Below, piece after piece: positions 3,935 to 63,645 of a DNA stretch of 64,000 bases. Origin of the DNA: Sciurus carolinensis (taxonomy: Eukaryota; Chordata; Mammalia; Rodentia; Sciuridae); assembly GCF_902686445.1 (NCBI RefSeq), contig NC_062232.1, forward strand, positions 77,021,440 through 77,085,439. The letters run 5' to 3'. The first letter of the stretch is position 1; each line of letters begins with the position of its first letter. Both the position numbers and the translations under genes were made by a program. Below the pieces are notes generated by a model. It ran no database searches and had not been told where the DNA came from. It was given only the letters and a program-made list of their open reading frames with translations.

Positions 3935-6900
3935 TCATCCACTTATCAGTGAGATCATTCTTCCATTGGTTTTTAGAGATTGGATTATCTCACTTAGCAT
4001 GATATTCTCCAATTTCATCCATTTGCCTGCAAATGCCATAATTTTATCATTCTTTATGGTGGAGTAATATTCCATTGTATATATATGCCACAGTTTCTTT
4101 ATCCATTCATCAACTGAAGGGCATCTAGGTCGGTTCCACAGTCTGGCTATTCTGAATTGAGCAGCTATGAACATTGATGTGGCTGTATCTCTGTAGTATG
4201 CTGATTTTAAGTCCTTTGGGTATAGACCAAGGAGTGGGATAGCTGGGTCAAATGGTGGTTCCATTCCAAGATTTCTGAGGAATCTCCATACTGCTTTCCA
4301 GAGTGGCTGCACTAATTTGCAACCCCACCAATGTATGAGTGTACCTTTTTCCCCACATCCTCTCCAATACCTGCTGTTGCTTGTATTCTTGATAATCACC
4401 ATTCTAATAGGGGTGAGATGGAATCTTAGGGTAGTTTTGATTTGCATTTCTCTTATTGCTAGAGATGTTGAACATTTTTTTCATATATCTGTTGATTACT
4501 TGTTCATCTTCTTCTGTGAAGTGTCTGTTCATTTCCTTAGCCCATTTGCTGATTGGATTATTTGTGTTCTTGGTGTAGAGTTTTTTGAGTTCTTTATAGA
4601 TTCTGGAAAAGAGTGCTCTATCTGAAGTATGAGTGGCAAAGATTTTCTCCCACTCTGTAGGCTTTCTCTTCACATTACTGATAGTTTCCTTTGCTGAGAG
4701 AAAGCTTTTTAGTTTGAATGTATCCCAGTTATTGATTCTTGCTTTTATTTCTTGTGCTATGGGAGTCCTGTTAAGGAAGTCTGATCCTAAGCCAACAAGG
4801 TGAAGATTTGGACCTACTTTTTCTTCTATAAGATGTAGGGTCTCTGGTCTGATTCTGAGGTCCTTGATCCATTTTGAGTTCAGTTTTGTGTAGGGTGAGA
4901 GATGGGGGTTTAATTTCATTCTTCTGCATATGGACTTCCAGTTTTCCCAGCACCATTTGTTGAAGAGGCTATCTTTTCTCCATTGCATATTTTTGGCCCC
5001 TTTGTCTAGTATGAGAAAATTTTATTTTTTTGGGTTTGTGTCCATGTCCTCTATTCTGTACTATTGATCTACTTGTCTATTTTGGTACCGATACCATGCC
5101 ATTTTTGTTACTATTGTTTTGTAGTAGAGTTGAAGATCTGGTATTGCAATATCTCCTGCTTCGCTCTTTCTCCTAAGGATTGCTTTAGCTATTCTGGGTT
5201 TCTTATTCTTCCAGATGAATTTTATGATTGCTTGCTCTATTTTTGTAAGGTACATCATTGGGATTTTAATTGGAATTGCATTGAATCTGTATAGCACTTT
5301 TGGTAGTATGGCCATTTTGACAATATTAATTCTGCCCATCCAAGAACATGGGAGATCTTTCCATCTTCTAAGGTTTTCTTTAATTTCTTTCATTACTGTT
5401 CTGTAGTTCTCATTGTAGACATCTTTCACCTCTTTTGTTAGATTGATTCCCAGGTATTTTGTTTTTTTCAAGGCTATTGTGAATGGGGTAGTTCTCCTAA
5501 CTTCTCTTTCTGAAGATTCATCACTTATGTATAAAAATGCATTGGATTTATGAGCATTGATCTTGTAACCTACTACTTTGCTGAATTCACTTATGAGTTC
5601 TAAAAGTTTCCTTGTGGAATTGCCGGGTTCCTCTAAATATATAATGATGTCATCAGCAAACAGGGATAGTTTGAGTTCTTCTTTTTCTATTTGTATCCCT
5701 TTAATTTCTTTGGTTTGTCTAATTGCTCTGGCTAGAGTCTCAAGGACAATGTTGAATAGAAGTGGTGATAGAGGGCATCCCTGCCTTGTTCCACTTTTTA
5801 GGGGGAATGCTTTCAGTTTTTCACCATTTAGAATGATATTGGCCATGAGCTTAGCGTAGATGGCCTTTACAATGTTAAGGAATGTTTCCACTATCCCTAT
5901 CCCTATTTTTTCTAGTGTTTTGAGCATAAAGGGATGCTGTATTTTATCAAATGCTTTTTCTGCATCTATTGAAATAATCATGTGATTCTTGACTTTAAGT
6001 CTGTTGATATGATGAATGACATTGATTGATTTCTGGATTTTGAACCAAACTTGCATCCCTGGGATGAAATCCACTTGATCATGGTGCACTATCTTTTTAA
6101 CATATTTTTGCATGCGATTTGCTAAAATTTTGTTGAGAATTTTTGCGTCGATGTTCATTAAGGATATTGGTCTGAAATTTTCTTTCCTCGATGTGTCTCT
6201 GTCTGGTTTAGGTATCAGGGTGATATTGGCTTCATAGAACGAGTTTGGGAGGGTTCCCTCCTCCTCTATTTCATGGAATACTTTGAGGAGTATTGGAATG
6301 AGCTCTTCTTTAAAGGTTTTGTAGAACTCGGCTGAGAACCCATCTGGTCCTGGACTTTTCTTTGTTGGTATGCTTTTGATGACCTCTTCTATTTCATTGC
6401 TTGAAATTGATTTATTTAAGTTGTGTATGTCCTCCTGGTTCAGTTTAGGTAATTCATATGTCTCGAGAAACTTGTTGATGTCTTCGAAGTTTTCTGTTTT
6501 TTTGGAGTAGAGATTTTCAAAATAGCTTCTAATTATGTTTTGTATTCACTCGTGTCTGTTGTGATATTTCCTTGGTCATTCCGAATTTTAGTAATTTGCA
6601 TTTTCTCCCTCTTTCTCTTTGTTAGTGTGGCTAAGGGTTTATCAATTTTGTTTATTTTTTCAAAGAACCAATTATTTATTTTGTTAATTTTTCTGATTGT
6701 TTCTTTTGTTTTAATTTCGTTGATTTCGGCTCTGATTTTAACTATTTCCTGTCTTCTACTCTTTTGGTGTTGGTCTGCTCTTCTTTTTCTAGGGCTTTGA
6801 GCTGTAGTGTTAAGTCGTTTGTTTGTTGATTTCTATGTCTTTTGTTGAATGTGCCCCATGAAATAAATCTTTCTCTAAGTACTGCTTTCATAGTGTCCCA

Positions 6901-7781
6901 GAAATTTTGATATGATGTGTCTTTGTTCTCATTTACTTCTAAGAATTTTTTTATTTCCCTCCTGATGTCTTCTATTGTCCATTCATCATATAATAGCATA
7001 TTATTTAATCTCCAGATATTGGAGAAGTTTCTGTTTTTTATTTTGTCATTTATTTCTAATTTCAATCAGTTATGATCTGATAGAGTACATGGTAGTATCT
7101 CTATCTTCTTGTATTTGCTAACAGTAGTTTTGTGGCATAAAATATGATCTATTTTAGAGAAGGATCTATGTGCTGCTGAGAAGAAAGTGTATTCATTCTT
7201 TGTTGGATGGTATATTCTATATATGTCCTTTAAGTCTAAATTGTTGATTGTGTTATTGAGAACTATGGTTTCTTTATTCAATTTTGTTTGGAAGATCTAT
7301 CCAGTGGTGAGAGAGGTGTGTTAAAATCGCCTAGTATTATTGTGTTGTGGTCTATTTGATTTCTGGAATTGAGAAGGATTTGTTTGATGTACATGGATGA
7401 GCCAATGTTCGGGGTATATATATTTATGATTGTTATGTCTTGCTGATTTATGCTTCCCTTAAGCAGTATGTAATGTCCTTCTTTATCCCTTCTGACTAGT
7501 TTTGGCTTGAAGTCCACATTATTTGAAATGAGGATGAATACTCCAGCTGTTTTGCTGTGTCCATGTGAATGGTATGTTTTTTCCCATCCTTTCACCGTTA
7601 GTCTATGGGTATCTCTTTCTATGAGATGAGTGTCTTGCAGGCAGCATATTGTTGGATTTTTCTTTTTAATCCAATCTGTCATTCTATGTCTTTTGATTGA
7701 TGAGTTCAGGCCATTAATGTTCAGATTTATTACTGTGATATGGTTTGTGATATGGTTTGACTCATTTTTGTTTTTTGACAT
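3935..7781 (-). pseudogene. L1 ORF2 (endonuclease-reverse transcriptase), broken
   Basis: L1 ORF2p nicks target DNA and reverse-transcribes L1 RNA. The span is close to the usual length of about 1275 codons. It starts at MSKNKNESNH. The endonuclease start (NLNINGLNS…) and the ILGDFN motif are present, followed by RT blocks including [10 protein letters not shown] and the catalytic LFADDIIIY. The C-terminal [16 protein letters not shown] cysteine segment follows. Breaks: loss of about one base near 7278 after DRSSKQN, an in-frame TGA near 7066, a frame change near 6742, further disruption to about 6158, a break near 5061-4988, and a frame change near 4404-4447. The usual LQETHL endonuclease motif reads LQDTHL here. 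The element cannot make full-length ORF2p. Confidence 0.92.
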
Positions 7782-8017
7782 GATTTGGTGTCTCCTTTAT
7801 TTGGCTATTTCTTTAGGCTAATTCCTCCGGTTGCTGATTTGCATGGTTGTTTTTCATCTCTTCCTCATGGAATATTTTGCTGAGAATGTTCTGTAATGCC
7901 AGCTTTTTTTTTTTTTTTCCGTAAATTCTTTTAGCTTTTTTTTTTATCATGGAAGGATTTTATTTCATCATCAAATCTGAAGGTAAGTTTTGCTGGGTAT
8001 AAGATTCTTGGTTGGCA

Positions 8018-8920
8018 TCATTTTTCTTTCAAGGCTTGGTAAATGTTGTTCCAGGCCCTTCTAGCTTCTAGGGTCTGGATTAAAAAATCTGCTGATATTC
8101 TTATTGGTTTCCCCCTGAATGTAATTTGATTCTTTTCTCTCGTGGCCTTTAAAATTCTGTCTTTATTTTGTATGTTAGGTATTTTCATAATAATGTGCCT
8201 TGGTGTGGGTCTGTTGTAATTTGGTATATTTGGTGTCCTATAAGCCTCTTGTACCTGGTTTTCCATTTCATTCTTCCGATTTGGAAAATTTTCAGATATT
8301 ATTTTATTGAATAGATTTTTCATTCCTTTGGTTTGTTTCTCTAAGCCTTCCTCAATCCCAATAATTCTTAAATTTGGCCTTTTCATGATATCCCATAATT
8401 CTTGTAGATTCTGTTCATGATTTCTTACCATCTTCTCTGTTTGGTCTAATTCTTGTAGATTCTGTTCATGATTTCTTACCATCCTCTCTGTTTGGTCAAC
8501 TTTGTTTTCAAGATTAAATATTTTGTCTTCAATGTCTGAGGTTCTGTCTTCCAGGTGTTGTATACTTTAGGTTATGCTTTCTATGGAGTTTTTAACTTGG
8601 TTTATTTTTTCCTTCATTTCAAGGATTTCTGTTTTTTTTTTTTTCAGTATCTCTAACTCTTTTTTGAAATTATCTTTTGCTTCCCGTATTTGCTCTTTTA
8701 ACTATTGATTGGTGCGATCATTTAATACCTGCATTTGCTCTTTCATCTCTTCCTTCAATGCCTGCATTTGCTCTTTCATCTCCTTGTTTTCTTCCCTGAT
8801 TGTTTTAATTTTGTACGTTCTGAACCCCCTTTCTGACATTTCTTCTACTGTGCTGTCATTGGGTTTTATTGATATAGTATCTAGGTTTGTTTGGGACATT
8901 TTCTTCCCTTGTTTTCTCAT
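8018..8920 (-). pseudogene. L1 ORF1 (RNA-binding chaperone), broken
   Basis: L1 ORF1p is a trimeric coiled-coil RNA chaperone that coats L1 RNA. The N-terminal part (8920-8702) begins MRKQGKKMSQ and runs into a repeated coil, KEEMKEQMQAL then KEEMKEQMQVL. It ends at a stop. The frame resumes at 8482-8018 with a duplicated 17-residue coil segment, then the RRM-like region (RIIGIEEGLE) and the C-terminal domain (PRHIIMKIPNIQNKDRILKATREK, shown here only in outline) ending QALKEK. Stops and a frame change between 8702 and 8482 break it. The identification rests on order, position 5' of ORF2 and the conserved RIIGIEE and ILKATREK motifs. Confidence 0.88.
8397..8498 (-). repeat. 51-bp tandem duplication in L1 ORF1 coil
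   Basis: Two adjacent 51-bp units (8397-8447 and 8448-8498) are almost identical. Each encodes 17 residues beginning MVRNHEQNLQEL. The period is a multiple of three, so the frame is kept. Confidence 0.9.
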
Positions 8921-22898: not shown

Positions 22899-23008
22899 GT
22901 TGTCAGTGGACCTTTATTTTATTTATTTATATGCAGTACTGAGAGTTGAACCCAGTGCCTCACACATGCTAGGTAAGCACTCTACCACTGAGCTACAACT
23001 CCAGCCCA
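22899..23008 (-). mobile_element. ID SINE with T-rich extension, antisense
   Basis: The extended ID form: TTAGTTGTCAGTGGACCTTTATTTTATTTATTTATATG-type spacer (shown in outline), then GTTGAACCCAGTGCCTCACA, GCACTCTACCACTGAGCTA and CCAGCCC. Confidence 0.85.
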
Positions 23009-31087: not shown

Positions 31088-31537
31088 TTATTGTCTCCAA
31101 GGGTAAGTCTTTGGAGACATCCGATGGTTCAATATGGGAAAATCTTCAGAGTTATTCATATCAGGAGGATTTTGGATGTTTTTTGTAGTACAGGGAACAT
31201 CTTTTATTGCAAAACTCCTGGATGGAGCCATGGATGCATTATAAAGACAGACACTCCTAATATGATCCTGTTGATATTCATGGTTTATTATAGTAGACAG
31301 ATAATGTTCCTCAAGATTGAGGAGGTGATCAATTGTTTTTTTGACATTGTCTGGTTGTCCAGTCACAGTGACATTTGAATTGGAGGACCCTTTTGGAGGG
31401 AAATGGATGTCTACTTGGAATTGATTCATTATTTTATGGATAACTTTTCCACGGAATCCAATAATATGGCCATGAACACGGCAGTTTAGTGGGATTTGCT
31501 TAGTAACTGTTCTTTCGATCTTCTGCACAATTCTCAT
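31088..31537 (-). pseudogene. Vigilin-like copy, C-terminal part after frameshift (KH14 and tail)
   Basis: An open frame of 149 residues, starting at an ATG that overlaps the previous stop region (GAATAATGAGA). It encodes the vigilin segment RIVQKIERTVTKQIPL, then KH14 with an intact GXXG (GFRG, residues 27-30), the helix HKIMNQFQVDIHFP and the conserved end APSRSFAIKDVP…SPKTYPW. It matches vigilin to within a few residues of its normal C-terminus. It lies one frame away from the main ORF; one extra base in the GAT-GAATAATG-AGA stretch would join the two. Combined length would be 1253 codons against 1268 in human vigilin as I recall it. Internal initiation is possible but not indicated. Confidence 0.85.
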
Positions 31538-34500
31538 TATTCATCTCGAGCAGCTAAGGTGTTGTTTTTATATCCAGTGATGATGATTTGGTCTTGTATT
31601 TCATTGCTCTCTTTAACTGGAAAGTGGATGGTAACATCATACTCTAAGCAAATATGAGCAACAACTAAGCCTTTACGACCAATGATCTTGGAGTGATATT
31701 TTGGGTCTAAAGTAAATATTAGTTTAAAATTTCTTAGTGCCCGATCTTCTATTTCAGTTTGTAAAGCCTTGACTCGTTCTTGTAATCTGGCCTTGGCTTG
31801 TTCCACATTTGTAGCAAGGCCCCTGATGGATATAACATCAGACTCTAGTCCGGGTTCTGATACCTGGATATTAACTTCAAATTCATCTATTAACTTGCGT
31901 ATCCCACTTCCTTTCTGACCAACAATGTAACGGTGTAGGCCAGCGGGTACATGCACTTCAGCAGTGATAGGAATTAGAGACTTAAGAGCTTCCATGGCTG
32001 CTTCACATTTTTCCTTTCGGCCTGAGATAAATATGGTGTCACGTTTCCTTGGAGATATTGATGCAGGTTCTTTAGTGCTGTTTCTTCCCATTTCATCCAC
32101 ATTTTCCTCAACAGCTGGATCTATATTTGTTTCTGGCCTTTCTTTGTCTGGGAATTTGATTTGAACATTATAATCCCTGGCAATTTGTCGGATTCGGGAA
32201 CACATTGGTCCCATGACAAAACGATGGAACTTTTGGGGAATAACACATTCTGTCGTGACTTGGGCATCCAAATCCCCAATAATCTCCAGAATATGTTTTT
32301 TGGCTGCTTCTACACAAGGCTTTGCTCCTTTTATTGTGACTTTGTTGCTCTGTTTTCCTGAACAGGAGAAGTTAATAATTACACCACCATACTCCTCAGT
32401 CATGTCCCGCAAAACCTGGCCCCTCCGCATAATAAAGTGATGGTGGTACTTCGGATGTATCAGCATATTATCCTCTACCACATTATCTAAATCTTCAACT
32501 AAAGCCTCCAGTTCCTTTTGTGCTTCGTTGACAGCTTCTTCTTTCCCTGTGAGAGTCAACAGTTCCTGATCCTTGTCCTCAAAGGTAGGGAAAATGACAC
32601 GCACTCCAGTCTCAGCACAGATCTTGGAAACATTGCCACCGTTTTTGCTCAAAAGAAACTGATGATATTGTGGTTTCACATGGAGTGCTGTAGAATAGCT
32701 CTTGGTTTGCTTTTCTTCTGCTAGCTGCAGCAACTTTTCCTTGGCCTTTTCAACGCTTTCAGCAGGGCCCCTAATAATGACTTTTTGAAGACCTAAGTTG
32801 TTTCTTGGAAAATGAATATGAATCTTTCCACATTCTTCCATGATTGAACTAATCAAACACTCCTTGGAATCAATAAGAGATTTGTGTAGATTGGAAGGAA
32901 TAAAAATTTCCACTTCTGAAATATTGGCTATATCTTTCTGAATTGAAAGGATCCAGTTACGTGCTATTTCACAGTTTTCTGGCTTTCCACAAATGACAAT
33001 ATTCTCTGAGTTGCTACTTGCTGATGGAAAATTAATCTTGGTGTTGCTTGCTGCACATATTTTTTTGATGTTTATACCTCCTTTTCCAATGATACTTTTG
33101 TGAAGCTTTTTGAAGATGGGAATAGTTATAGAATAACTGTTTTCTATAATGTCTGTTACCACATTCTCTAAATACTCTGTGCATTTTTCTAATTCATGTT
33201 TTGGCCCTATGAGTTGGACAATGTCACTTTTCTCTGATGAGTGTGGAAAATTAATCATAACTTCTGGGAATTTCTTACGTATGTCATGGATTCGTTCCCC
33301 TTTCTTCCCAATAATTGTGTGGTGAAATCTTTGCTCAATTATTAAGTCTTTCCTGTGCTCATTTTTAAAATTAGCTGCAAGATCAGTAAGTTCTTTCTTG
33401 GCCTGTTGGACACGCAGATGTTCCCCTTCAATTCTGATCAGAATATTCTTTTCATTTTCAGGTAAGATTAGCACAGAAACCTTATTCTTCTCCTTAATTC
33501 TGTTTATGATAACACCATTCTTTTCTATCAGGTACTTGTGAAATTTATAGTCAATCCTGATCTCTTCATAATCCATTCTGTTAATTAGATCTTTGAGCAT
33601 GTTCTCAATTTCTTTTTGAGCATAATTCACATCATCCACTGGTCCTTTTAGGATAATTTTATCTTCTCCAGTAAACTCTATATGTACTCTTGGCATGTTC
33701 TGTGTTACCTTGGATATATTCTGACCTTTCTTACCAATAATAAATCTGTGAAGCCAAGAAGGGGCAGAGATGGATGAAACAATGTAACCCTTGGCTTTCC
33801 AGTAGGCTTCAATAAATGCCCCTCCTGTACTTTCAGGCTCACCTTGATGTGTCACAGAATCTGATGTACTACTATCTGATGGTAAGATCTCTATGGAAAC
33901 TCCAGTTCTTTCTAAGATCTCTTGCATAGAATTGTGCTTGGGACCTATGGTACAATTATGCTGTGATTTCATCTCCATATCTATGGTTGTTTTCATTTTG
34001 GTGTTCTCAAAATTCTCCCTTACACAAGATTCAGCCTGGTCCACTTGTGATTTTCTTCTGTTGAAAACTATTTCTATCTCATTGGCACTGGATGGTGGAA
34101 TATGGATGTATGCCTCTGTTTCCTGAATGGTACTGTCGGTAGTTTTACTGTATGGCCCGGCAAACAAGGGATGAAATGTCTTTTTTGCATGTAATGTCTC
34201 TGTAACACACTTGTCTTTTTCTGCAGGTGTAAGAAAGACTTTGTATGGAGATTTCTGTGTAACCTGGTGCGTGCCGCCATTATTGATCCAGTTATTCTGA
34301 GTATGTGGGCATAAGAAATCAGTGTTCATTGCAGCTTTTTGTTCCAAGTCTTGTAGTTTATCTCTAGTCTTGCTTGTAACAAAGCAATGCTGTTCTTTGG
34401 AAATAGGCATTGTAGTTAAAACGTTCTCCTGAAAGCATGCAAAAATTTCCTTCTGAGCTTTCATGACAGTTTCTGGATTACCAGAGACAGTTATGTAGAG

Positions 34501-34848
34501 ACCGTGGTCTTTGACAAAAGTTAATTCTAGGTTAGCACCAGTTCTTTCCATGATATCTAGATAGAATTTTGCTTGTCTACCTTCATCAAAGTGAGTCAAA
34601 CACTTTTCTTCTTCCAGTGGCACATAAAAAGCTTGAGTGATGACTGAGGTCTCTGCATATTGAATATTATTGCTTGAATATTCTCCAGGTTTCTGAGGAT
34701 TTTCTAACCAATTTAGTTTTTGTGAGTGTTGAGTAAAATTATCGGTGTAAGTGAGAATACCAAGCTCCTCATCTGAATTTAAAGTGATAAGATTTTCTTT
34801 TGGAATATACCTACTTTGTTGCACATTCAGATTTTCTTTGGAGGTCAT
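31537..34848 (-). CDS. Vigilin-like multi-KH RNA-binding protein (intronless HDLBP retrocopy), main ORF
   Basis: Vigilin (HDLBP) is a cytoplasmic, ER-associated RNA-binding protein with 14-15 KH domains. This frame encodes 1103 residues from the first ATG at 34848; an upstream in-frame TTG would add 13 residues with no vigilin counterpart. The ATG context is good (ACAATGA, A at -3). Vigilin-like sequence runs from the N-terminal region (ASVITQ…PLEE equivalent ETSVITQAFYVPLEEEKC) to the GYKNNTLAARD segment after KH13. Counting from the TTG, GXXG loops are intact in KH4 (385-388), KH6 (527-530), KH7 (601-604), KH12 (990-993) and KH13 (1070-1073). They are altered in KH1 (172-175), KH3 (315), KH5 (455), KH8 (673), KH9 (747) and KH11 (893). 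The parent gene has many introns and this copy has none, so it arose by retroposition. Over half the residues look identical to vigilin by eye. It ends at a TAA created by a one-base loss. It could be a functional retrogene lacking the last KH domain, or a recent pseudogene. Confidence 0.9.
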   Translation of the reverse strand: MTSKENLNVQQSRYIPKENLITLNSDEELGILTYTDNFTQHSQKLNWLENPQKPGEYSSNNIQYAETSVITQAFYVPLEEEKCLTHFDEGRQAKFYLDIMERTGANLELTFVKDHGLYITVSGNPETVMKAQKEIFACFQENVLTTMPISKEQHCFVTSKTRDKLQDLEQKAAMNTDFLCPHTQNNWINNGGTHQVTQKSPYKVFLTPAEKDKCVTETLHAKKTFHPLFAGPYSKTTDSTIQETEAYIHIPPSSANEIEIVFNRRKSQVDQAESCVRENFENTKMKTTIDMEMKSQHNCTIGPKHNSMQEILERTGVSIEILPSDSSTSDSVTHQGEPESTGGAFIEAYWKAKGYIVSSISAPSWLHRFIIGKKGQNISKVTQNMPRVHIEFTGEDKIILKGPVDDVNYAQKEIENMLKDLINRMDYEEIRIDYKFHKYLIEKNGVIINRIKEKNKVSVLILPENEKNILIRIEGEHLRVQQAKKELTDLAANFKNEHRKDLIIEQRFHHTIIGKKGERIHDIRKKFPEVMINFPHSSEKSDIVQLIGPKHELEKCTEYLENVVTDIIENSYSITIPIFKKLHKSIIGKGGINIKKICAASNTKINFPSASSNSENIVICGKPENCEIARNWILSIQKDIANISEVEIFIPSNLHKSLIDSKECLISSIMEECGKIHIHFPRNNLGLQKVIIRGPAESVEKAKEKLLQLAEEKQTKSYSTALHVKPQYHQFLLSKNGGNVSKICAETGVRVIFPTFEDKDQELLTLTGKEEAVNEAQKELEALVEDLDNVVEDNMLIHPKYHHHFIMRRGQVLRDMTEEYGGVIINFSCSGKQSNKVTIKGAKPCVEAAKKHILEIIGDLDAQVTTECVIPQKFHRFVMGPMCSRIRQIARDYNVQIKFPDKERPETNIDPAVEENVDEMGRNSTKEPASISPRKRDTIFISGRKEKCEAAMEALKSLIPITAEVHVPAGLHRYIVGQKGSGIRKLIDEFEVNIQVSEPGLESDVISIRGLATNVEQAKARLQERVKALQTEIEDRALRNFKLIFTLDPKYHSKIIGRKGLVVAHICLEYDVTIHFPVKESNEIQDQIIITGYKNNTLAARDE

Positions 34849-49221: not shown

Positions 49222-49309
49222 GACTGGCGATATAGCTCAGTTGGTAGAGTACTTGCCTTGCATGCACAAGGCCCTGGGTTCAATCCCCAGCACCACCAAA
49301 AAAAAAAAG
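49222..49309 (+). mobile_element. ID-type SINE, little diverged
   Basis: GGACTGGCGATATAGCTCAG, TTGGTAGAGTACTTGCCTTGC and GGGTTCAATCCCCAGCACC plus an A tail. Close to the squirrel ID consensus, so relatively young. Confidence 0.92.
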
Positions 49310-63546: not shown

Positions 63547-63645
63547 GGCTGGGGATATAGCTCAGTTGGTAGAGTGCTTGCCTTGCATGCACAAGACCCT
63601 GGGTTCAATCCCCAGCACTGCAAAAAAAAAAAAAAAAAAAAAAGT
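63547..63645 (+). mobile_element. ID SINE, near consensus, perfect duplication
   Basis: GGCTGGGGATATAGCTCAGT, TGGTAGAGTGCTTGCCTTGC and GGGTTCAATCCCCAGCAC plus an A run of about 21. AAGAATGTGCCTTAGG lies at 63531-63546 and 63646-63661. Confidence 0.95.

Follow-up and report, generated by a model that had tools for sequence, protein, structure and literature searches.

An intronless vigilin (HDLBP) copy in the squirrel genome with a long reading frame constrained for most of its life

To our knowledge, mammals are regarded as having one vigilin (HDLBP) gene, which is nearly invariant. Seven PDB chains (2CTE, 2CTF, 2CTJ, 2CTK, 2CTL, 2CTM and 1VIG), which we take to be NMR structures of human vigilin KH domains, match the 1103-residue frame described here with E-values from 2e-5 to 9e-35. 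They are pieces of the parent-type protein, and no vigilin retrogene product is present among the matches listed. The second system available for comparison is that of the mammalian functional retrogenes. Like them, the squirrel locus is an intronless, processed copy that came under purifying selection after its birth; unlike them, it is long (a coding span of 3.76 kb), old by its synonymous divergence and known here from sequence alone. No paper on a mammalian vigilin/HDLBP retrogene was found among the listed open-licence literature matches; in one set of 219 papers, none of the 20 listed contains the word HDLBP. Automatic genome annotations may well list the locus as 'vigilin-like'. The excerpt of PMC12984401, which deals with vigilin domains, contains nothing about paralogues or pseudogenes.

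The copy and its parent gene

The copy lies on the reverse strand of the window, the whole 64-kb stretch of squirrel DNA that was analysed (Table 1). An earlier note, made from the letters of the window, had described 1103 open codons with vigilin-like KH repeats and a second frame leading to the native C-terminus. Both were found, and the Pfam domains and the protein alignment agree with this description. The main frame is free of internal stops and contains eleven KH_1 and two KH_Vigilin domains; a further KH_1 domain is present in the tail, which is read in a different frame. The order of the KH domains is collinear with that of vigilin, so the copy has the tandem-KH arrangement by which the vigilin family is recognized. 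With the KH domains numbered along the vigilin residues as we assume UniProt does, KH13 of the main frame ends inside its last helix.

Table 1. Positions of the vigilin copy, its parts and neighbouring elements, counted from the first letter of the window
Feature	Position	Strand	Description
Main open frame, 1103 aa	31537..34848	-	Native start codon to early stop just past the frame break; KH0-KH13
Well conserved core, vigilin residues 361-735 (KH4-KH8)	32674..33795	-	Copy-branch dN/dS 0.24; coordinates from protein alignment
Sole frame break	31537..31545	-	One base fewer than the parent; TAA overlapping ATG directly after
TAATG	31535..31539	-	Overlap of the early stop with the second frame's first ATG
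Continuation in second frame	31088..31540	-	KH14 and C-terminal region, native TAA at end
Codons of the continuation	31091..31540	-	150 codons
Native terminal TAA	31088..31090	-	
Pieces resembling LINE-1 ORF2/ORF1	3935..8566	-	Long frames, over several frames (by eye, from translations)
GC-rich segment	9148..9684		Internally repeated frames on both strands; GC 0.44 in the 8-10 kb bin vs 0.34 in flanks
tRNA-Ala-like SINE	22931..23003		A-rich tail
tRNA-Ala-like SINE	49225..49299		A-rich tail
tRNA-Ala-like SINE	63558..63615		A-rich tail

Aligned with vigilin residues 8-1115, the main frame is identical at 652 of 1109 positions (59%); the tail aligns with residues 1117-1263 at 46% (69/149). A global alignment gives 654 identical residues out of 1102 for the main frame and 69/148 for the tail. 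The reference in these comparisons is a provisional human HDLBP/vigilin protein sequence, which five PDB chains match barring end tags and one residue.

The parent gene was located in the same genome at C3:183145119-183173231, with 26 coding exons, 25 introns and one stop, which is terminal. This gene model was obtained by splice-aware alignment to a provisional human coding sequence; the procedure itself forces GT-AG intron ends, and one exon is partly N. The search of the genome with the protein listed 19 matches, namely the copy itself, within the window at C30:77021440-77085439, and 18 exon-sized matches in the parent locus on C3; no third vigilin copy is among these 19. The parent is situated ~0.37 Mb from the end of its contig. 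Its third-position GC is 0.78, compared with 0.62 in the provisional human sequence, a strong GC rise in the squirrel lineage.

Every one of the 25 parental coding introns is missing from the copy (25/25), which therefore came via mRNA, as the earlier note had supposed from the multi-exon structure of HDLBP. Other traces of retroposition are faint. The best match between the flanks of the copy and the sequences 4 kb past the parent's stop and 10 kb before its start has an E-value of 0.85. The search for a target-site duplication gave only one common 11-mer, far from the ends of the copy, and that for a poly(A) tail only an A7 run just past the stop; both are unconvincing. Traces of these kinds would have decayed, and UTR sequence is not expected to persist at such a divergence.

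Aligned to the parent from its own genome, the copy shows 58% amino-acid identity across 1224 codons, the same KH order over its full length, and start and stop codons at the native positions. The terminal TAA is retained and the native ATG apparently so, with a five-codon deletion two codons downstream. The two genes differ in that the parent is split into its 26 coding exons and evolves at a dN/dS of 0.03, whereas the copy has no introns and a faster rate of evolution, lacks six of the 12 GxxG loops and carries one break. This break, of one base, is the only one, and the other length differences keep the frame, as claimed at the outset: all 14 gaps in the pairwise protein alignment are whole codons (10 in the main frame, four in the tail). 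A protein alignment can display whole-codon gaps only, yet the frame is the same on both flanks of each of the 14.

The window also contains LINE-1-like pieces, a GC-rich repeated segment and three SINEs (Table 1). The latter are presumably of the ID type, squirrel-like in look.

Constraint on the protein and the frame break

Selection was estimated with a three-tip codon model built on the own-genome parent, the provisional human coding sequence and the copy, with length, base composition and dN/dS fitted per branch and CpG effects left out. The parent branch has a dN/dS of 0.03; HDLBP is nearly frozen. The copy branch, with a length of 0.87, has a dN/dS of 0.29, and a value of 1 is rejected (2dL 234.6). 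Thus, measured together with the same-species HDLBP, the ratio is far from the value near 1 that had been named as speaking against selection. Constraint extends over the entire copy: dN/dS is 0.39 for residues 1-360 (2dL 36.2 vs 1), 0.24 for residues 361-735 (90.8), 0.21 from residue 736 to the break (104.0) and 0.42 in the tail past the break (15.9). When the copy branch is set equal in length to that of the parent, its dN/dS is still 0.44. Fits made without the parent, since superseded, agree with this for the main frame, although some did not converge; in them, the tail alone is not clearly distinct from 1 when a low root GC3 is assumed. The NG86 values (0.10-0.27) are near saturation and were set aside.

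The codon positions give a similar picture. Identity between copy and parent is 0.736, 0.798 and 0.393 at the first, second and third positions, respectively, whereas simulated neutral decay down to the observed protein identity of 58% leaves a third-position identity of 0.74-0.77. In these simulations, 29-34 stops accumulate on average, with a minimum of 13 in 1600 replicates (eight settings of 200 each); the copy has none in 1224 codons. The earlier note had likewise expected many stops in a neutral copy this diverged. The third-position GC of the copy (0.35) is close to that of its flanks (0.33), and its first-position GC is 0.47.

Retrocopies are mostly pseudogenes, which would favour a neutral processed pseudogene, with a long frame retained by chance. 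The probability of this is negligible: a dN/dS of 1 is rejected, about 30 stops would be expected where none is seen, and the 14 remaining gaps leave the frame intact. For most of the life of the copy, neutrality is refuted by the codon model and the stop simulation alike. The protein was under purifying selection during the greater part of the copy's existence, as the earlier note had suggested.

As read, the copy encodes KH0-KH13 without KH14 and the C-terminus. The full-length frame is today interrupted after codon 1103 of about 1253, and a product of 88% of the length is possible. For the present sequence and under assumed indel rates, one unit of neutral divergence would bring 350-630 stops and frame-breaking indels. 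At these assumed rates, one lesion corresponds to an unconstrained span of ~0.002-0.003 substitutions per site, at most 0.008-0.014, which is less than 2% of the copy branch. A span this short, together with a tail that is itself constrained, indicates that the break happened late or else is not real.

If the break is real, an ancient, once-functional retrogene could recently have died in the squirrel lineage, the one-base loss being its first disabling change and the locus a young unitary pseudogene. We regard this as a serious possibility, if a somewhat doubtful one. KH14 is lost through the break, together with half of one KH13 helix, and the lesion load fits the short neutral span given above (up to 0.014 at the assumed indel rates). 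Nevertheless, 1103 of about 1253 codons are open, neither side of the break has acquired a stop, and the shortened protein could still function.

The alternative, in which the gene has kept its whole length intact and the break reflects a rare allele or a fault of sequencing or assembly, appears unlikely. It would account for the presence of a single lesion in 3.76 kb and for a tail that has remained constrained past the break (dN/dS 0.42, 2dL 15.9) up to a native stop. Homopolymer runs are the usual place of sequencing and assembly errors, however, and the break site is not one.

A programmed frameshift was also considered and rejected, as the bases at the break do not, by eye, form a slippery heptamer. 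In the sequence TAATG, the early stop shares bases with the ATG that comes first in the second frame. Overlapping stop-start pairs of this kind are known from termination-reinitiation sites. The overlap is probably due to chance; reinitiation there, if it occurs, would allow separate production of the KH14 part.

Age of the copy

The three-taxon tree is unrooted, and branch lengths are counted from the common node: 0.87 for the copy, 0.24 for the parent and 0.19 for human. The copy branch is thus far longer than that of the parent, by a factor of 3.6. Had the copy originated in the squirrel lineage, later than the split from human, its branch and that of the parent would be of equal age. Forcing the ratio of copy to parent branch to 1 costs 103.6 in 2dL; ratios of 1.5, 2, 2.5 and 3 cost 44.4, 18.5, 6.7 and 1.7, respectively. 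The inequality requires either a neutral rate at least about 2.5-fold higher in the copy or, more likely, a copy that predates the split and whose branch includes some of the parental stem. The copy therefore probably arose before the human-squirrel split, as far as branch lengths can tell.

Shared codons were compared as well. At 215 codons, the residue is the same in all three sequences and the codon differs between parent and human; here, the copy has the human codon in 104 cases, the parental one in 51 and neither in 60. This human excess is partly a result of the drift of the copy to A+T. It is carried by the class with G/C in the parent and A/T in human, in which the copy matches human 88 times and the parent 28 times out of 143, and in which the A+T drift favours human. 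In the opposite class (parent A/T, human G/C), the copy matches the parent in 15 of 35 cases and human in 10, and among codons of the same base class, it matches the parent in seven and human in four of 19. Pooled, the two small classes favour the parent, 22 to 14 of 54, a lean toward which both the A+T drift (in the 15-to-10 class) and errors in the provisional human sequence push. When the G/C states are compared alike, the copy matches that of the parent at 28/143 and that of human at 10/35.

The earlier suggestion of a lineage-specific origin is not supported by these comparisons: equal ages are rejected, as is a ratio of 2, and the copy is overall no closer to the parent's synonymous changes than to the human states. 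A younger retrogene, born after the human-squirrel split, would need a neutral rate 2.5-3 times that of the parent or more; at 2.5-3 times, the fit is nearly as good. The lack of a root, the small cost of a ratio of 3 and the moderate one of 2.5, and the lean of the two small classes leave some room for it. In view of the cost of equal ages at an equal rate (103.6), of the large class (88 against 28, helped by A+T drift) and of the total (104 against 51), it is quite improbable. A squirrel-born copy is disfavoured by the sequence comparison; the retention of the copy could still be lineage-restricted.

Parent and human differ at 46 protein sites; of these, the copy shares 11 with the parent, 19 with human and 16 with neither. 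Provisional mouse and chicken sequences provide 88 sites at which the chicken state is found in neither human nor mouse. The copy carries the chicken state at 21 of them, where a mammal-like source would predict 5.9, and the mammalian state at 25, where it would predict 49.5. This weak lead hints at a deeper origin and, together with the branch lengths, would allow one on the early mammalian stem.

RNA-binding loops and predicted function

Six of the 12 KH-type GxxG loops are retained in the copy, at vigilin residues 381, 524, 598, 989, 1069 and 1144, the last of these past the break. The other six (residues 167, 312, 452, 670, 744 and 890) are lost. A thirteenth GxxG string, at residue 62, lies outside the KH loops and was excluded from the count. 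Loop glycines are conserved at a rate similar to that of the other glycines (16/24 vs 33/53), so RNA binding has not been specially protected. The same figures give no support to a special loss of the RNA-binding loops.

The N-terminal 300 residues of the copy are poorly conserved, with 35-58% identity in bins of 75 residues. In PMC9117268, HDLBP KH5-9 bound RNA almost as the full-length protein did, no high-affinity substrate was obtained for KH0-4, and multivalency increased affinity. The conserved core of the copy overlaps KH5-9. The drifting first 300 residues and the conserved centre would fit a vigilin-like RNA binder of reduced valency.

In the explanation that we prefer and consider likely, a processed HDLBP/vigilin retrocopy, probably older than the human-squirrel split, became a protein-coding gene and has been under purifying selection for nearly its whole life. 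An HDLBP mRNA would have been retroposed, probably ahead of that split, and the retrocopy would have been transcribed and kept as a protein-coding gene nearly ever since. Its product is predicted to be a vigilin-type RNA-binding protein of the cytoplasm with multiple KH domains. As roughly half of the RNA-contacting GxxG loops are left, it would bind CU-rich stretches of mRNA with lower valency or in a narrower range. A late one-base deletion would then have broken the 3' end, unless the break is an assembly error.

This explanation can be extended, though only tentatively, to a larger group. Placentals, or an older group, may once have had a second, intronless vigilin gene, which has since disappeared or escaped notice in most lineages and may still be at work, with fewer RNA-binding loops, in a squirrel-like rodent. 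An old, selected second copy would be a long and old retrogene frame as well as a natural experiment on which of the 15 KH domains of vigilin matter: the copy has retained the central and C-terminal blocks, the first 300 residues have drifted, and half of the GxxG loops have been dropped.
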